A stretch of 61,985 nucleotides of DNA from Chloroflexota bacterium. Its GTDB lineage: Bacteria; Chloroflexota; Anaerolineae; Promineifilales; Promineifilaceae. The stretch lies in assembly GCA_018004935.1 (NCBI GenBank), contig JAGNBF010000003.1, positions 1-61,985 on the forward strand, in the 5' to 3' direction. Under the pieces are notes generated by a model that was given only the letters and a program-made list of their open reading frames with translations, had not been told where the DNA came from and did not search any database. Shown here piece after piece: positions 11,662 through 61,976 of this stretch. Both the position numbers and the translations under genes were made by a program. The stretch's first letter is position 1. Each line of letters opens with the position of its first letter.

Positions 11662-11964
11662 AAGCAATTAGTACCTTACGAGTCAACTTCTTATACAGAT
11701 AGCAAGAAGATCAGCTACGAATTGCCCGAATGAGTTTACTGATTCCCATTCACGCTAATTCGTAAAATTGGTGGTAAGCGTTCAGTTGGGTTACAGCAAC
11801 GGATTAAAAAATAAACGGATCTTCCAGAGGTCGTCTTTAATCTGTGCCTTTCTAAATTCGTTGAAGTAACCAAAACGGCCTAAAATCGCCTCTGAACTGA
11901 ACGGTTACAATTCGTAGCAAAAACCTCTTTGGTTCTGGTTTGTTCAGGGTAGGACGAGAAAATT
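11662..11964. other. gap holding a B-type element
   Basis: Most of this gap is the 135-bp element at 11774-11908 described separately. The rest shows no gene or hairpin. Confidence 0.5.
11774..11908. repeat. B-type element inside family-A termini
   Basis: It starts GTAAGCGTTCAGTTGGGTTAC and ends CTGAACTGAACGGTTAC, so the ends are inverted copies of the family-A terminus. The interior is the reverse complement of the 45296-45413 copy (AATCCGTTG...GGTCGTCTTTAATC...CAGAG). Flanks AATTGGTG and AATTCGTA agree at 6 of 8 positions, a possible eroded target-site duplication. Confidence 0.75.
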
Positions 11965-14465: not shown

Positions 14466-14727
14466 ATCTTCTCAATAAAGGTATGCGTTCAGTTATCCCG
14501 CCCGGCGGTCAAACCGCCGGGCTAAACATACCAGGCCCTACGGGCTAAAACCCCAAGCCAGCGGCCTTTGTAACCATAGCCCGGTCGTTTTACGTCTGGG
14601 CGGGTCTGGCGGATGGATTTATATGACTGAACGCTTACCAATAAAGTGTGGTGACGTTGGTTAAACTTGTCGCAACCAACTGCCTGTGACAGACTCAGGC
14701 TACGTTTCTCTCGCAATATTGAGAAGA
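14466..14727. repeat. H element, copy 2, interrupted by an A element
   Basis: ATCTTCTCAATAAAG (14466-14480) is the left end and ATTGAGAAGA (14718-14727) the right end. The middle matches the uninterrupted H copy at 57116-57212. A 158-bp A element splits it after CAATAAAG. Confidence 0.8.
14473..14646. mobile_element. A element (MITE-like), copy 1, with target-site duplication
   Basis: The element is 14481-14638. Its ends GTATGCGTTCAGT and ACTGAACGCTTAC are imperfect inverted repeats. CAATAAAG occurs directly on both sides (14473-14480 and 14639-14646), an exact 8-bp target-site duplication. The interior lacks coding capacity and is nearly the reverse complement of the copy at 48955-49096, apart from a ~14-base insertion near the left end. 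Confidence 0.88.
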
Positions 14728-28857: not shown

Positions 28858-29032
28858 TATTCAAAGTAAACGTTCAGTTACCCCCCCTTGGCGGTCAAAC
28901 CGCTGGGCTGTAAGGACGAAGCCCTACGGGTTAAACTGCCAGGCCAACGGCTTTTGTCGCCCTAGCCCGGTCGTAAGACGATCGGGCAGGTTGACGAATG
29001 AATTTACACAACTGAACGGTTACTTATTCAAA
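28858..29032. mobile_element. A element, copy 2
   Basis: The element spans 28866-29024 with ends GTAAACGTTCAGT and ACTGAACGGTTAC. TATTCAAA lies at 28858-28865 and again at 29025-29032, the right copy one base off the terminus. The interior is related to but diverged from the 14481 copy (GCGGTCAAACCGC, CCCTACGGG, AGCCCGGTCG). Confidence 0.8.
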
Positions 29033-36626: not shown

Positions 36627-36840
36627 CAGAGGAGTTCCCCATGTGCCTTTGGCGCACCAAGAGGGATGAAAATTTGTAGGACGATTTGGTAAATCGTCCA
36701 CTGGGCGATTTTTAAATCGCCCTACATTTTCGTAGGAGTTCCCCATGTGCCTTTGGCACACCAAGAGGGATGAAAATCTGTAGGACGATTTGGTAAATCG
36801 TCCGGGCGATTTGCCAAATCGCCCTACATTTTCGTAGGAG
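36627..36840. repeat. tandem duplication of ~103 bp containing G hairpins
   Basis: GAGTTCCCCATGTGCCTTTG ... GAGGGATGAAAAT ... GTAGGACGATTTGGTAAATC ... CGCCCTACATTTTCGTAG occurs twice in a row (about 36629-36734 and 36735-36839). The copies differ at a few bases and by a short loop deletion. The end CGTAGGAG of the second copy is the Shine-Dalgarno of the next gene. Confidence 0.85.
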
Positions 36841-45286: not shown

Positions 45287-45713
45287 AGTTGTTACGTAAC
45301 TGTTCAGTTCAGAGACGGTTTTAGTCCGTTTTGGATGACTTCAACGGATTTAGAAAGGAACGGATTAAAGGCGACCTCGGGAAAATCTGTTTGTTTCTTA
45401 ATCCGTTGATGTAACCGATACTTACCACGGTCATAAAGTGACATTTTGTTAGCGGCAACAGATTGGTAGGTTTGGACTGAAGACCCATCCCCCTTCGATC
45501 CCAGAGGGAAGGGGGGAGAAACCTACCGGCGCGGTTTGGCGAGCGTCCGCTCGCCAAACCGCGCCGAAAATAGTTCCCCGCCCCCAGGGGCGGGGTTAGG
45601 GGTGGGGGTGGCCTTGGATAAACCCAACACGACGATAAAGTGAGACGGCGACAGGGCGAAAAAATGTCAGATTTTGCCCTTTGACAGTATAACTGAACGC
45701 TTACAGTAGTTAC
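45287..45713. mobile_element. composite element with A termini: B copy plus F8
   Basis: The element is 45296-45704, from GTAACTGTTCAG to ACTGAACGCTTAC. The left part (45296-45413) is an uninterrupted B element: AGAGACGGTTTTAGTCCG ... AACGGATTAAAGGCGACC ... TTTCTTAATCCGTTGATG. The right part is a full F element (45418-45690). Flanks AGTTGTTAC and AGTAGTTAC match at 8 of 9 positions. Confidence 0.8.
45527..45566. repeat. F element hairpin, copy F8 (CGGCGCGGTTTGGCGAGCG type)
   Basis: 19-bp perfect arms (45527-45545 and 45548-45566) with a two-base loop. Against F6 the inner part of the arm differs on both sides in matching fashion. Confidence 0.85.
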
Positions 45714-45725
45714 GAGAAGATATGA

Positions 45726-47228
45726 TTACCAGGATTTAAGTAAGCGCAAGCGGCAAAAGAGATAAACAGCCAAGACGAGTACCAGAAAAGAGGGCAGAAC
45801 ACTTTGTATGATTAGTTTGATGCTCTGCTCTTGGCTGTTAAAGGGTTGGTTTTGTGGGGTGGGGTTGGGGGACAGTTGGCTGATGGGAAAGGGAGCTGGG
45901 GTGGTGATTGACTCTGAGGGGCAGGAAGTAGGGTGGTTATCTTGTGGGTGTTGTGTTGGGAGCGGCTGGGGCGCAAAATGAGGGGCGTCTAACCAGCGGT
46001 GGCTATACCACACCTGTGAGCCTTGCCCGCCTGACCACAGATAGGCCTGCGGCCGCACAAACCATACTACATGTAGTTCATTGCCATTGGCTATGGTGAT
46101 CTCGGGCCATTCGGGTACGTCCCCACTAAATGAGACTATCGGTTCGGGGGTTGACCAGATGTGCCCATTCCAATTGAGGTGTAACAGGTCTAATCCACTC
46201 TGAGGTGCAGTGCGCCGCCCCACCATTACCAGATGCAGATGTCCCAGGCTATCACTGACCATAACGGCATGGTCCAGGCGGCCCTGATAATGGCTCCATG
46301 CACCGTATAAGTTGGGAATGGGGGTGGGCGTATTCCAACTGCGGCCGCGATCTGCGGACACCCCGTAATAGATCAAATCACTGTTCGTATCCTGCCACAC
46401 CACCACCAGATTCCCGGCTCCATCCTGCCCTAACCCTGCCTGGCGGGCCGCCTGTTGTGGCAGGGATAACTGCATTGGATTGGACCAACTTTGCCCCCTA
46501 TCTACAGAGTGGGCAAACTGGATGGTAGTTGGGTCAACCAGTTGCCCTTGTGCCCCCCCCACGCCCGATTCCCATATCAGGAAGAGATTATCGGTGGTAT
46601 CTATATGCAATTGGGGCTTGGCCGAACCGGTGGGTATAAACGAAACATCTATCGCCGGACTCCATTCCTGGAGGGTGGCGTCGCGATATCGGGCATAAAC
46701 ATGGTAGCAGATGGGGCAATTTGAGGTACTGACGTTGCTTGTATAAACCAGGTGAAGGCGGTTTTGGCTATCATGGGCCAGGGTAGAATAATACCCCTGG
46801 CTAATGGGGGTTACTTGCCAGTTATATGCACAGGCGGCCTGACTGATATGAGCCTGGGCATAATAAATGGTGGTATCGCGAAAGGTCAGGTGTATTTGCC
46901 CGGTGCTGTCACTGAGTAACGTAGGGCGGGTTGCCTCAGTGCCACCCTTGACCGGGCAGGCAACAATATCGTTGCCCGGTTGCCAATGTTGACCATCCAA
47001 ACTGCTGGTGTACATGACCAGATCGTAAGCGATACCGGTCTCATCGGCGGGTAGGCCCGAAGTCCAAACAACATGGATTTGCCCGCTACTGTCGGCAGTA
47101 ATATCAGGAAACCAACCATCACCCAGGTTTTGCGGCCGCGACCAGTCACCCGCCTGACTCTCTCCTGCTGGACTTAACCCCACCCATAAAAGGCATAACA
47201 GGGAAAAAGCATATAGCCATTGCCGCAT
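45726..47228 (-). CDS. secreted BNR/sialidase-like beta-propeller with C-terminal anchor, paralogue 1
   Basis: About 500 residues. A signal peptide (MRQWLYAFSLLCLLWVGLSP) is followed by repeated blades: WSRPQNLGDGWFPDI, HVVWTSG, LHLVYTSN, SVDRGQSWSNPMQLSLP and SADRGRSWNTPTPIP (S-x-D-x-G-x-S/T-W Asp-boxes), a Pro/Thr/Ser linker, one C-terminal membrane helix and a short basic tail. GGAGG before ATG 47228 sets the start. It lacks clear sialidase catalytic residues, so binding is likelier than hydrolysis. The gene to its right encodes a close paralogue with the same blade order. Confidence 0.85.
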   Translation of the reverse strand: MRQWLYAFSLLCLLWVGLSPAGESQAGDWSRPQNLGDGWFPDITADSSGQIHVVWTSGLPADETGIAYDLVMYTSSLDGQHWQPGNDIVACPVKGGTEATRPTLLSDSTGQIHLTFRDTTIYYAQAHISQAACAYNWQVTPISQGYYSTLAHDSQNRLHLVYTSNVSTSNCPICYHVYARYRDATLQEWSPAIDVSFIPTGSAKPQLHIDTTDNLFLIWESGVGGAQGQLVDPTTIQFAHSVDRGQSWSNPMQLSLPQQAARQAGLGQDGAGNLVVVWQDTNSDLIYYGVSADRGRSWNTPTPIPNLYGAWSHYQGRLDHAVMVSDSLGHLHLVMVGRRTAPQSGLDLLHLNWNGHIWSTPEPIVSFSGDVPEWPEITIANGNELHVVWFVRPQAYLWSGGQGSQVWYSHRWLDAPHFAPQPLPTQHPQDNHPTSCPSESITTPAPFPISQLSPNPTPQNQPFNSQEQSIKLIIQSVLPSFLVLVLAVYLFCRLRLLKSW

Positions 47229-47420
47229 AACCAACCTCCAGGAAATTAAAGTGGGTTCTGGAGTGCTGATTACAGTTCAACAGAAGCAATCGTAATTGCC
47301 TAGTGACAGTTATCACCTGGATTGGTGCAGAATGTGAGAGATTACTGGTACTGAGGTACTTGTGTATCAGGGCAGAAGTCTCTAGCACAGTACGGCGTAA
47401 GTAGAACCCAGGGTTTTTTC

Positions 47421-48908
47421 TTATTTTTGGAACTGGCGGATGATAAAGGTGGCTCCCATGATGAAGAGAAGTGGCAGGACCAGGCTCTGGAAGATTAAAA
47501 ACACATCATCATTTTCGGTGGTAATGTCGCCGTAAAAACCCAAACTTTCTGTTTGTGCGCCCGCGGCCGAGAGGGGGACGACGGTAGGTGTGGTGAGTAG
47601 TTCAGCGGTGGGAGTCGCTGGTGGGGGGGTGAGCGTTGGTAAAAAAACCTCTTCAACACGGGGCACGTCTAATAAACGGTGGGCATACCATACCTGGGAG
47701 CCAAAACCACCTGACCAGATGTACGCTTCAGGACGAATGAACCAGGTGACATGCAATTCCTGACCATTGGCGATGGTGATCTCTGGCCATTCCGGCACGT
47801 CACCGTAAAACGAGGCAATGATCTCCGGATCGGACCAGGCGCTTCCATCCCAGGTGAGATGGAGCAGATCCAGACTAGACTGATTGGCGCTGGTGCGCCC
47901 TACCAGTACCAGATGTAAATGCCCCTGGCTATCGGCGGCCATGACGTAATGATCCAGCCGTCCAGGATAAATACTCCACCCGCCCCAAATATGGGGAATG
48001 GCCGCGGCCGCAGTCCAGGTACGGCCGCCATCCCCCGAGATACGATAATGAACCAGATCTGTTTGCGGGTTGAGCCAGACTACTACCAGATTACCTTCCC
48101 CATCCAATCCCAGGCCAGGATGTCTCGCCCGTTCGCCATCAGCAGAAAGTTGACTGGGTAGGCTCCAGGTCTCGCCCCGATCTGTGGAGAAAGAGAATAA
48201 AACAACCGTGGGATCAACCAACTGCCCATAAGAGCCACCAATGCCAGCTTCCCAAAAGAGATAAAGGTTGTCTTGCTCATCTATGATCAACTGAGGTTTG
48301 GCGGAACCGATGGGTAAGGTGGAGACATCGGTAGCCGATGACCAGCTTTGCCCATCGTTATCAGAGAAGCGATAAAACAGGTGGTAACAAATGGCACATT
48401 GATCGGAAACGACGTTATCCGTATATAAAAGGTGCATGCGGTCCTGGTTATCGAGGCCAAAAACAGAAAAGTATCCCAGATTAATCGGTTTGAGGGACCA
48501 ACTTCCGGCCTGCCCCGCCAGATCTGCCGGAGCCTGGGCATAGAAGACGGTGGTGTCTCGATAGGTCAGATGTAAGCGGTTGCGGGCATCGGCCACCAGA
48601 TAAGGACGGGTAACTTCACTACCAGCCGATTGCGGCCGCGCCCCAATGTCATTCGGTGGACTCCAACGTACCCCATCGGTACTCCCGGTATACATTACTA
48701 CATCATACCCCTTAAAATTATCGGAATCGCCCACGGCGCTGGCATAAACCAGATGAACATAACCAGTGGCATCGGTAACGATGTCGGGGAACCAGCCATC
48801 ACCCAGACGTAGCGGCCGCGACCAGGTATTATTCTGGCTCTGACCTGGTGGACTGGCCCACAACAGGAACAAGATGAGGAGGGGAATGGCGAGGAGAAGA
48901 CGTTTCAT
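47421..48908 (-). CDS. secreted BNR/sialidase-like beta-propeller with C-terminal anchor, paralogue 2
   Basis: 495 residues with the same plan as its neighbour: signal peptide (MKRLLLAIPLLILFLLWASP), WSRPLRLGDGWFPDIVTDAT, Asp-boxes SFSTDRGETWSLPSQL and ISGDGGRTWTAAAAIP, CAICYHLFYRF (compare CPICYHVYARY in the paralogue), linker and C-terminal helix. The cysteine pair C-x-I-C is conserved in both. Probably a tandem duplication; the genes are separated by ~190 bases without a terminator that I can see, so they may share a transcript. Ligand unknown. Confidence 0.85.
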   Translation of the reverse strand: MKRLLLAIPLLILFLLWASPPGQSQNNTWSRPLRLGDGWFPDIVTDATGYVHLVYASAVGDSDNFKGYDVVMYTGSTDGVRWSPPNDIGARPQSAGSEVTRPYLVADARNRLHLTYRDTTVFYAQAPADLAGQAGSWSLKPINLGYFSVFGLDNQDRMHLLYTDNVVSDQCAICYHLFYRFSDNDGQSWSSATDVSTLPIGSAKPQLIIDEQDNLYLFWEAGIGGSYGQLVDPTVVLFSFSTDRGETWSLPSQLSADGERARHPGLGLDGEGNLVVVWLNPQTDLVHYRISGDGGRTWTAAAAIPHIWGGWSIYPGRLDHYVMAADSQGHLHLVLVGRTSANQSSLDLLHLTWDGSAWSDPEIIASFYGDVPEWPEITIANGQELHVTWFIRPEAYIWSGGFGSQVWYAHRLLDVPRVEEVFLPTLTPPPATPTAELLTTPTVVPLSAAGAQTESLGFYGDITTENDDVFLIFQSLVLPLLFIMGATFIIRQFQK

Positions 48909-48946
48909 GGATGATTAAGTAACGGATTTAAAAAGGAACGGATTAA

Positions 48947-49104
48947 AGATGACCGTAAGCGTTCAGTCATATAACTCCATCCGCCAGACCCGCCCGGACG
49001 TAAAACGACCGGGCTATGGTTACAAAAGCCGCTGGCCTGGGGTTTTAGTCCGCATGGCCTGGTATGTTTAGCCCGGCGGGATAACTGAACGCTTACAGAT
49101 GACC
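48947..49104. mobile_element. A element, copy 3, with exact 8-bp target-site duplication
   Basis: Element 48955-49096 (142 bp), GTAAGCGTTCAGTCATATAA to TTAGCCCGGCGGGATAACTG / AACGCTTAC. AGATGACC is repeated exactly at 48947-48954 and 49097-49104. It is the reverse orientation of copy 1, apart from a ~14-base difference. Confidence 0.92.
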
Positions 49105-49117
49105 TCTGGAAAATTCG

Positions 49118-49252
49118 TTTATTTCGGCATGGTTCAGGTCAGCTTTACAAATTTGTAGGACGATTTGGTAAATCGTCTCGTGGGCGATTTACCAAATCGC
49201 CCTACAAACTGTTAAGCACCATTTGCCGACTTTTGAACCACGCCTTTATTTC
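49118..49252. mobile_element. J element (carrying G hairpins), copy 1, with 8-bp target-site duplication
   Basis: Element 49126-49244 (119 bp) with ends GGCATGGTTCA and TGAACCACGCC (10 of 11 complementary). TTTATTTC flanks both sides (49118-49125, 49245-49252). Inside is the G dyad pair GACGATTTGGTAAATCGTC and GGCGATTTACCAAATCGCC. Confidence 0.88.
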
Positions 49253-49295
49253 TTAATCCGTTGTTGTAACTATAACCGTTCAGTCATGAATATGT

Positions 49296-50963
49296 TTATG
49301 GCCCAACTACGCCCGTAACCTGATAAACCTGAGTTGTTGGATTGGTAAAAACGGGTGTCAGAAAGGGATCATTGGCTGGATGATAACTGCCCAGGGCTTG
49401 CTCGGCTGGGCCGTACAGAACGTAATCCACACTATAGGTTTCCAGAGTCGCCAGCCGCTCCTCATCCGGCGTCTCCGGGGCGAAAAAGGTGTTCACCATT
49501 TCCGTTTTGCCGAAAAAGTCCAACGTTTGTGCCCAATGGGCCAGGAAAGCGTGGGTTCCCGTCAGAGCGGGAATGTATTGCCCGGTGGTGACAGAACTCA
49601 GCACCACATCATCCCCTTCAGCATTTTGCTCCAACCAGGCGAAGGCGTCCAATTCGTCATGGTACAGGTAATAAGGGTAATCGTGGCGGCGCAATTCGTC
49701 AAAACGCCATAACCACAGATAGAGGTTGGTAGGAATAACAACCAGTAAGAACAGGATAGGAACGACTTTTTGCACCGTTTGTGGCGTCAGGGGAAGGCGG
49801 AAACGGCTCAATCCCGGAGCTACCCAGTCATACAACGCCAGCGTCGCCAGGATGCCCATCGGCACTTGCCAGCCGTTGAGCATGTGAACCTGGAAATCGG
49901 TGGGGATGTAGAGCAGGAAGAAGTTGGCGACGAACCAGGCCACCAGGAAGAGGGTTTTGTTGTCGAGCGCGGTGAGGCGATGCGGCCGCAACCGCACCAA
50001 TCCCACAATCGCCAGCCACAACAACGGCCCAAAAAAGATGAGCAGGTGGAACGGGGGCGGCGAGTACACCCCGGCATTGGCAAATTGGGCCAGCACCTCT
50101 TCCCACACCGGGTCGAGCGAGGTCAAAATGAAGGAGTAGAGGGCAGGCCACCAGGAGATCAGCCCCAAAATGATGAGACCCTGCACCAAAAACCAGGGGA
50201 AACGGCGTTCCCGTGCCCAAAACAGCAGGGTGTACGCGCCCAAAATGCCATAAACCAGCACCAGATCGTAGGCGTGTTGCCAGCCGAAAAACAGCCCTAG
50301 CAGTCCGGCGTACACGGCATAACGGAGTTGTCCTTTCTCCTGTCCGCGCAGAAAAAGGTAGAAGATGGCGATGTATAGGGCCGCGCCGATGAAATGGGGG
50401 TAGCCCAAAACGCTCAAAAAGGTGTTGCCTTCGGCGGTGAAGATGTCGAGGAGCCAGCGCAGGGGCAGGTCGGTGTCGAGGAACAGTTCGCGGTAAACGA
50501 TAAGGAGCCAGCCCAGCCCGGCACTGAAGGTGATAAGGAGAAAGGCGGTTTGTCTGCGGCCGCGATCCGGCAAAAACCAGCCGCAAAACAGGTAGACCAG
50601 CGGCAAAAACAGGGCCGTCGCTACCACCCGCAGAACCTGGAACATGCCCGCATACCCCACCCCCACCAGATGGCCCAGCCGTCCCAATCCCCACCAGAGC
50701 AGGTTAAAAAAGATCGGCTGGTTCGGTTCCGGGGTCAGTTTGTTGGCGGATAGGTTGGCGTAGGTCAGTTCGCGCATCCAGGAAAAATATTGGCCGTGAT
50801 CCGGCACATCCAGCATGATGCCCATGAACTGCTTCTCTGGCGGTGCAGTCAGCCAGCCAAAGAGGTAGGGCACACTGGTCAACACCAGAACCAACAGAAC
50901 GATGAACGTGACAAAACGCCATTCGGCGCGGGTGATGATAGGGGAAGATGAAGGTGAGGTCAT
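49296..50963 (-). CDS. multi-pass membrane protein, GT39/GT-C-like, copy 1
   Basis: About 555 residues from ATG 50963. ITRAEWRFVTFIVLLVLVLT opens the first helix. The following loop LDVPDHGQYFSWMRELTYAN has the D-x-G/H pattern near the first outer loop typical of GT-C enzymes, and about ten further hydrophobic segments follow. A C-terminal domain, FAWLEQNAEGDDVVLSSVTT / GQYIPALTGTHAFLAHW, is extracytoplasmic. It likely uses a polyprenyl-linked sugar, which fits the Dpm1-like gene at 17405. The frame to 51074 is translated G-repeat text. This gene and the next are GC-rich compared with their surroundings. Confidence 0.75.
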   Translation of the reverse strand: MTSPSSSPIITRAEWRFVTFIVLLVLVLTSVPYLFGWLTAPPEKQFMGIMLDVPDHGQYFSWMRELTYANLSANKLTPEPNQPIFFNLLWWGLGRLGHLVGVGYAGMFQVLRVVATALFLPLVYLFCGWFLPDRGRRQTAFLLITFSAGLGWLLIVYRELFLDTDLPLRWLLDIFTAEGNTFLSVLGYPHFIGAALYIAIFYLFLRGQEKGQLRYAVYAGLLGLFFGWQHAYDLVLVYGILGAYTLLFWARERRFPWFLVQGLIILGLISWWPALYSFILTSLDPVWEEVLAQFANAGVYSPPPFHLLIFFGPLLWLAIVGLVRLRPHRLTALDNKTLFLVAWFVANFFLLYIPTDFQVHMLNGWQVPMGILATLALYDWVAPGLSRFRLPLTPQTVQKVVPILFLLVVIPTNLYLWLWRFDELRRHDYPYYLYHDELDAFAWLEQNAEGDDVVLSSVTTGQYIPALTGTHAFLAHWAQTLDFFGKTEMVNTFFAPETPDEERLATLETYSVDYVLYGPAEQALGSYHPANDPFLTPVFTNPTTQVYQVTGVVGP

Positions 50964-50979: not shown

Positions 50980-51190
50980 CGTATTTGTAGGACGATTTTG
51001 TAAATCGTCCACTGGGCGATGTGCGTATTTGTGAGTCTACTGAAAAAAGGTCGCGCAGAGGCGCAAAGGCGCAAAGTTACCAGAGAAAAATTCGTGCCAA
51101 TTCGTGTAATTCGTGGCTTCTTTCAGTGGACTCATTTGTAGGACGATTTGGTAAATCGTCCACTGGGCGATTTACACAATCGCCCTACAG
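50980..51190. repeat. G hairpins between the two membrane protein genes
   Basis: Two copies of GTAGGACGATTTNGTAAATC / GTCCACTGGGCGAT (about 50985-51020 and 51137-51186), the second ending in TACACAATCGCCCTAC. The G dyad GATTTGGTAAATC is itself self-complementary. Confidence 0.75.
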
Positions 51191-54903: not shown

Positions 54904-55022
54904 GGCATGGGTCAGGCCAGCTTTATAAATTTGTAGGACGATTTGGTAAATCGTCTCGTGGGCGATTTACCAAATCGCCCTACAAACTGTTAAGCACTGC
55001 TTGCCGACTTTTGCACCACGCC
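54904..55022. repeat. J element, copy 2
   Basis: 119 bp from GGCATGGGTCAGG to GCACCACGCC, the same length as copy 1 and nearly identical inside (GTAGGACGATTTGGTAAATC / GTCTCGTGGGCGATTTACC). The termini are less well matched and no flanking duplication is visible. Confidence 0.85.
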
Positions 55023-61882: not shown

Positions 61883-61976
61883 GTAACCGTTCAGCCTTCA
61901 GAAGGTTTGTATCACTGGTCAACACCTTTGCGGAAACCTTTGAAAGGCTCTTTTTCGCAGGGAACTAAACGCTTAC
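61883..61976. mobile_element. short element with A-type termini
   Basis: 94 bp from GTAACCGTTCAG to CTAAACGCTTAC. The interior (GAAGGTTT ... AAACCTTTGAAAGG) is unlike other copies. Flanks ACTCTACAC and ACTATATAC agree at 7 of 9 positions. Confidence 0.6.

Follow-up and report, generated by a model that had tools for sequence, protein, structure and literature searches.

Bacterial MITEs such as MITEPsy1 of Pseudomonas syringae are short, non-coding elements with terminal inverted repeats that make target-site duplications of fixed length and are present in multiple copies (PMC3189936). Among insertion sequences, ends beginning with GTAAGCG together with 8-bp duplications are a published hallmark of IS66 (PMC11946415), with GTAAGCG ends also reported elsewhere (PMC12888890) and 8-bp duplications described for several members (PMC3281130). 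A third kind of repeat is represented by the GTAG-tagged REP / REPIN palindromes (PMC3733652).

Here we describe a nest of three non-coding elements, called A, B, and J, in an uncultured lineage of the Anaerolineae (Chloroflexota); the window is the whole 61,985-nucleotide stretch of DNA that we analysed. The three families share the general features of MITEs, i.e., they are short, lack a transposase gene, have terminal inverted repeats, make duplications with a fixed length of 8 bp, and are dispersed in multiple copies with consensus lengths of 119-158 bp, too short to encode a transposase. The likeness to MITEPsy1-type elements lies in these features, and the locus differs from them in that two systems are nested and in the high copy number, with 288 exact occurrences of GTAAGCGTTCAG in the genome (reversed control, 0) and 341 of GGCRTGGTTCA (reversed control, 3). 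No previous account of the A, B, and J MITEs turned up in literature searches.

The nest is direct sequence evidence of movement by two non-coding repeat systems, the larger of which is tied to IS66. It is very probably a nest of three MITEs in which A and B derive from IS66 and J from a second system, both moved in trans. The locus is ordinary in kind: small genomic parasites have clearly moved, by the ordinary route of MITE transposition, with two systems involved. The host genome carries hundreds of MITE ends without a detectable transposase for them, and how MITEs outlive their enzymes is a question that can be tested by comparing relatives.

Architecture of the nest

The nest lies in the gap between two minus-strand ORFs, neither of which is interrupted: a 495-aa ORF with a BNR repeat domain that starts at 48908 and a 592-aa ORF without a Pfam match that ends at 49296. 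A BNR repeat-like domain match is found in both of the adjacent window ORFs at 45726-47234 and 47421-48908. The preliminary description had proposed that a B element is split here by a 142-bp A and a 119-bp J, each with its own 8-bp duplication, and the exact repeats are indeed there: A and J are 29 bp apart, and each lies between perfect 8-bp direct repeats (AGATGACC for A, TTTATTTC for J; Table 1). At this base composition, a single 8/8 match arises by chance with p = 1.5e-5. The nested A is a member of the 158-bp family with an internal deletion, and the nested J is one base off the 37-copy consensus. Neither end of the nested B itself is left; on the left side about 45 bp with the terminal repeat are missing, as judged by alignment with the B consensus.

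When each insert is excised in silico together with one copy of its duplication, what remains is a colinear B core that is 89% identical to the window's B at 45343-45415, as had been predicted, and 88% identical to a second B copy at 11790-11862. The first of these B elements had been regarded as intact from 45296 to 45413 and as the empty site for both insertions. It is unoccupied and colinear, but it is a paralogous copy and not the ancestral empty site; it extends to about 45425, its right end has decayed, and no duplication is visible around it. Among 29 aligned genomic B copies, the target site of A is uninterrupted in all but 1-2 deleted copies and that of J in all but 3 deleted copies.

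Table 1. Positions of the nested elements and of further family members in the window
Feature	Coordinates	Strand	Basis
B remnant, left part (B core)	48917..48954	+	BLAST to 45343-45415; alignment with B consensus
A target-site duplication, copy 1, AGATGACC	48947..48954	+	
A, 142-bp IS66-type MITE, non-coding, ends GTAAGCGTTCAGTC / AACTGAACGCTTAC	48955..49096	+	
A target-site duplication, copy 2, AGATGACC	49097..49104	+	
B remnant, middle part; last bases are copy 1 of J duplication	49105..49125	+	Alignment
J target-site duplication, copy 1, TTTATTTC	49118..49125	+	
J, 119-bp MITE, ends GGCATGGTTCA / TGAACCACGCC	49126..49244	+	
REPIN-like palindrome inside J, two inverted GTAG-tagged hairpins	49155..49205	.	
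J target-site duplication, copy 2, TTTATTTC	49245..49252	+	
B remnant, right part; right terminal repeat lost	49253..49270	+	Alignment with B consensus
B paralogue, uninterrupted; left end GTAACTGTTCAG kept, right end decayed	45296..45425 (end approximate)	+	
Complete B with both IS66-type ends (GTAAGCGTTCAG / CTGAACGGTTAC)	11774..11908	-	
Second A copy, 158 bp, 8-bp duplication CAATAAAG	14481..14638	-	
Diverged 158-bp A copy, the third in the window; flanked on each side by TATTCAAA, offset by 1 base	28866..29023	-	
Second copy of J, its duplication now unrecognisable	54904..55022	+	

The same duplication length recurs across the genome, for which pairs of ends and hairpins were counted in a 1.22-Mb contig sample of the host with targeted regions added. 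Among oriented end pairs less than 6 kb apart in the 1.22 Mb, 7 or 8 of the 8 flanking bases are equal in 21/40 A-type pairs and in 14/33 J-type pairs, the latter including three overlapping pairings from one tandem J array, and for J a clear gap separates the matched pairs from the background. Perfect matches are found at k=8 (19/38 for A-type, 8/19 for J-type), with few or none at k=7 or 9.

A and B as one IS66-type system

The ends of complete B copies (GTAASCGTTCAG) are those of A, and these copies are likewise flanked by 8-bp duplications, which are perfect, e.g., at C88:28509-28644 (GCGTGAAG) and C76:55626-55744 (CAAGGAAT). The 136-bp B consensus starts with GTAACCGTTCAGTT and the A consensus with GTAAGCGTTCAGTC, while both end with AACTGAACGCTTAC. 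Because complete B copies share the ends and duplications of A, the two form one transposition system; A therefore inserted into an element of the system to which it belongs itself, and the mobile systems at this locus are therefore two. This is the correction that matters: the two non-coding insertions with 8-bp duplications stand as evidence of movement, but A and B, which had been treated as separate families, share one IS66-type system.

Further size classes with A/B ends measure 94, 225, and 247 bp. Two 225-bp B variants (G000:C145:148576-148800 and C36:20786-21010) hold an additional block rich in CTC/GAG repeats within the same ends. A 94-bp element with A-type ends is present twice in identical form (window 61883-61976 and C190:62110-62203); the two copies share their flanks, stand on opposite sides of a gap, and are perhaps a scaffolding duplicate.

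By their ends, A and B are IS66-type MITEs, because both their GTAAGCG-beginning ends and their 8-bp duplications agree with the published IS66 signature and because an element in a relative has exactly these termini; the link is thus drawn from end sequence and from this single element. It lies in Anaerolineae bacterium ACE_CHL11 (G049), one of the relatives searched for the end, measures 1,570 bp, and has the inverted end GTAAGCGTTCAGTTGG on both sides, identical over 16 bp. The protein encoded between these ends (491 aa) has matches to DDE_Tnp_IS66 (3e-32) and, above cut-off, to the NCBIfam IS66 transposase model NF033517 (1.1e-85). The element has no recognisable duplication (3/8) and differs from the IS66 family in having one long gene, not the usual three. 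A wider scan with its protein recovered this contig again and, beyond it, no more than a remote protein from the Spirochaetaceae. Copies of A and B share their ends and duplications with single-gene IS66 insertion sequences, but they are about 94-250 bp long and carry no gene. The search for an IS66 gene in the host assembly was negative; this assembly, a draft in 229 contigs, may lack multi-copy insertion sequences. The search for a transposase by its ends that had been recommended earlier thus gave IS66 for GTAAGCGTTCAGT in a relative, but nothing in the host assembly and nothing for GGCRTGGTTCA. One 1,696-bp pair of A-type ends (C50:20584-22279) was set aside as a candidate on the basis of its ends and flanks: it has no duplication, and the two ends belong to short elements that are separate from each other.

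We infer that an IS66 transposase that recognises GTAASCGTTCAG ends and makes 8-bp duplications would have mobilised B and A, both of them non-autonomous IS66-family relatives, in trans. It is quite improbable that a transposase of another family moved them and that its ends resemble those of IS66 by coincidence. Such an enzyme would sit well with the absence of a detectable IS66 gene in the host and with the single autonomous-looking copy in relatives, but not with the identical 16-bp end on both sides of the IS66 gene in G049, nor with an A/B end and duplication length that fit the published hallmarks (PMC3281130, PMC11946415).

J, its hairpins, and candidate enzymes

With termini of GGCRTGGTTCA and 8-bp, mostly AT-rich duplications, J belongs to a system different from A/B. 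J-type ends in related genera (G008, G012, G017, G028, and G049) enclose unrelated interiors and are likewise flanked by 8-bp, mostly AT-rich duplications. J would have been moved in trans by the transposase of this second system, whose hallmarks are GGCRTGGTTCA ends and 8-bp AT-rich duplications. Searches of the host for transposases of IS66, IS1595, ISL3, IS6, and IS256 gave no match for any of the five families. IS6, ISL3, and IS256 were rejected as the source of J's enzyme: copies of IS6 in relatives end with GGTTCTGTTGCAAA and not with J ends, copies of ISL3 and IS256 in relatives lack J ends, and none of the three was detected in the host. Neither the 1.22-Mb sample nor the fetched regions of four relatives yielded a long element that is bounded by J ends and flanked by an 8-bp duplication, and a 945-bp candidate in G017 contains ordinary sequence and no transposase. 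It is a tentative and on balance unlikely proposal that J and its sister MITEs across the bacterial family represent an undescribed transposase family (GGCRTGGTTCA ends, 8-bp AT-rich duplications) and that J is a hybrid with a REPIN body.

The interior of J resembles the REP / REPIN palindromes (PMC3733652) in consisting of two GTAG-tagged hairpins in inverted orientation. Such hairpins are also abundant outside of J, but those of J sit within a MITE that has its own ends and duplication. The 1.22 Mb contain 197 GTAG-tagged hairpins (permuted tags, 0-20); inverted pairs number 65, only 13 of them near a J end. Since the hairpins are abundant and mostly away from J ends, the palindrome is therefore a repeat of its own that is carried by J. 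Solitary GTAG-tagged palindromes resembling the J interior are present in the window at 36670-36836, 50983-51020, and 51134-51189. The hairpin pair inside J and these genome-wide counts would also be expected if a REP-type tyrosine transposase had spread J by acting on the hairpins, with the J ends being incidental. We consider this very improbable, given that J copies have exact common outer ends and 8-bp duplications, as from DDE transposition, and that the ends of J enclose different interiors in the J-type MITEs of relatives.

A tandem J array at G000:C50:7606-8406 has a period of 125 bp with units joined by CTCTAC; as a whole it is flanked by CTCTCTAC, and it is partly N in the assembly.

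Order of insertions and nesting elsewhere

Neither A nor J lies inside the other, so the order of insertions can be read only from divergence. The nested B is 16% off its consensus (family median 7.7%), compared to 7.1% for the nested A (family median 7.7%) and 0.8% for the nested J (family median 2.5%), which suggests that B is the oldest, followed by A and then J. An old B would thus have been struck by A and then, probably later, by J.

Associations of J with B recur in the genome. In a second B copy (C165), J has inserted independently and is flanked by a duplication of its own (AAAACAAC as given on the strand read), and a third J adjoins the right end of a B, with CTATTTTT on both sides. 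This repeated association may reflect an AT-rich target and survival between genes and not a true preference. A chimaeric assembly of three abundant repeats is almost certainly not the explanation of the nest: the draft state of the assembly (229 contigs) and N runs in some J arrays speak for it, but a chimaera would yield neither exact 8-bp duplications matching the B target nor the genome-wide 8-bp rule, and J has independently entered another B copy with a duplication of its own. At another locus (L372, G000:C36:115600-116300), a J is enclosed by an A-like interior, which is apparently a further case of nesting.
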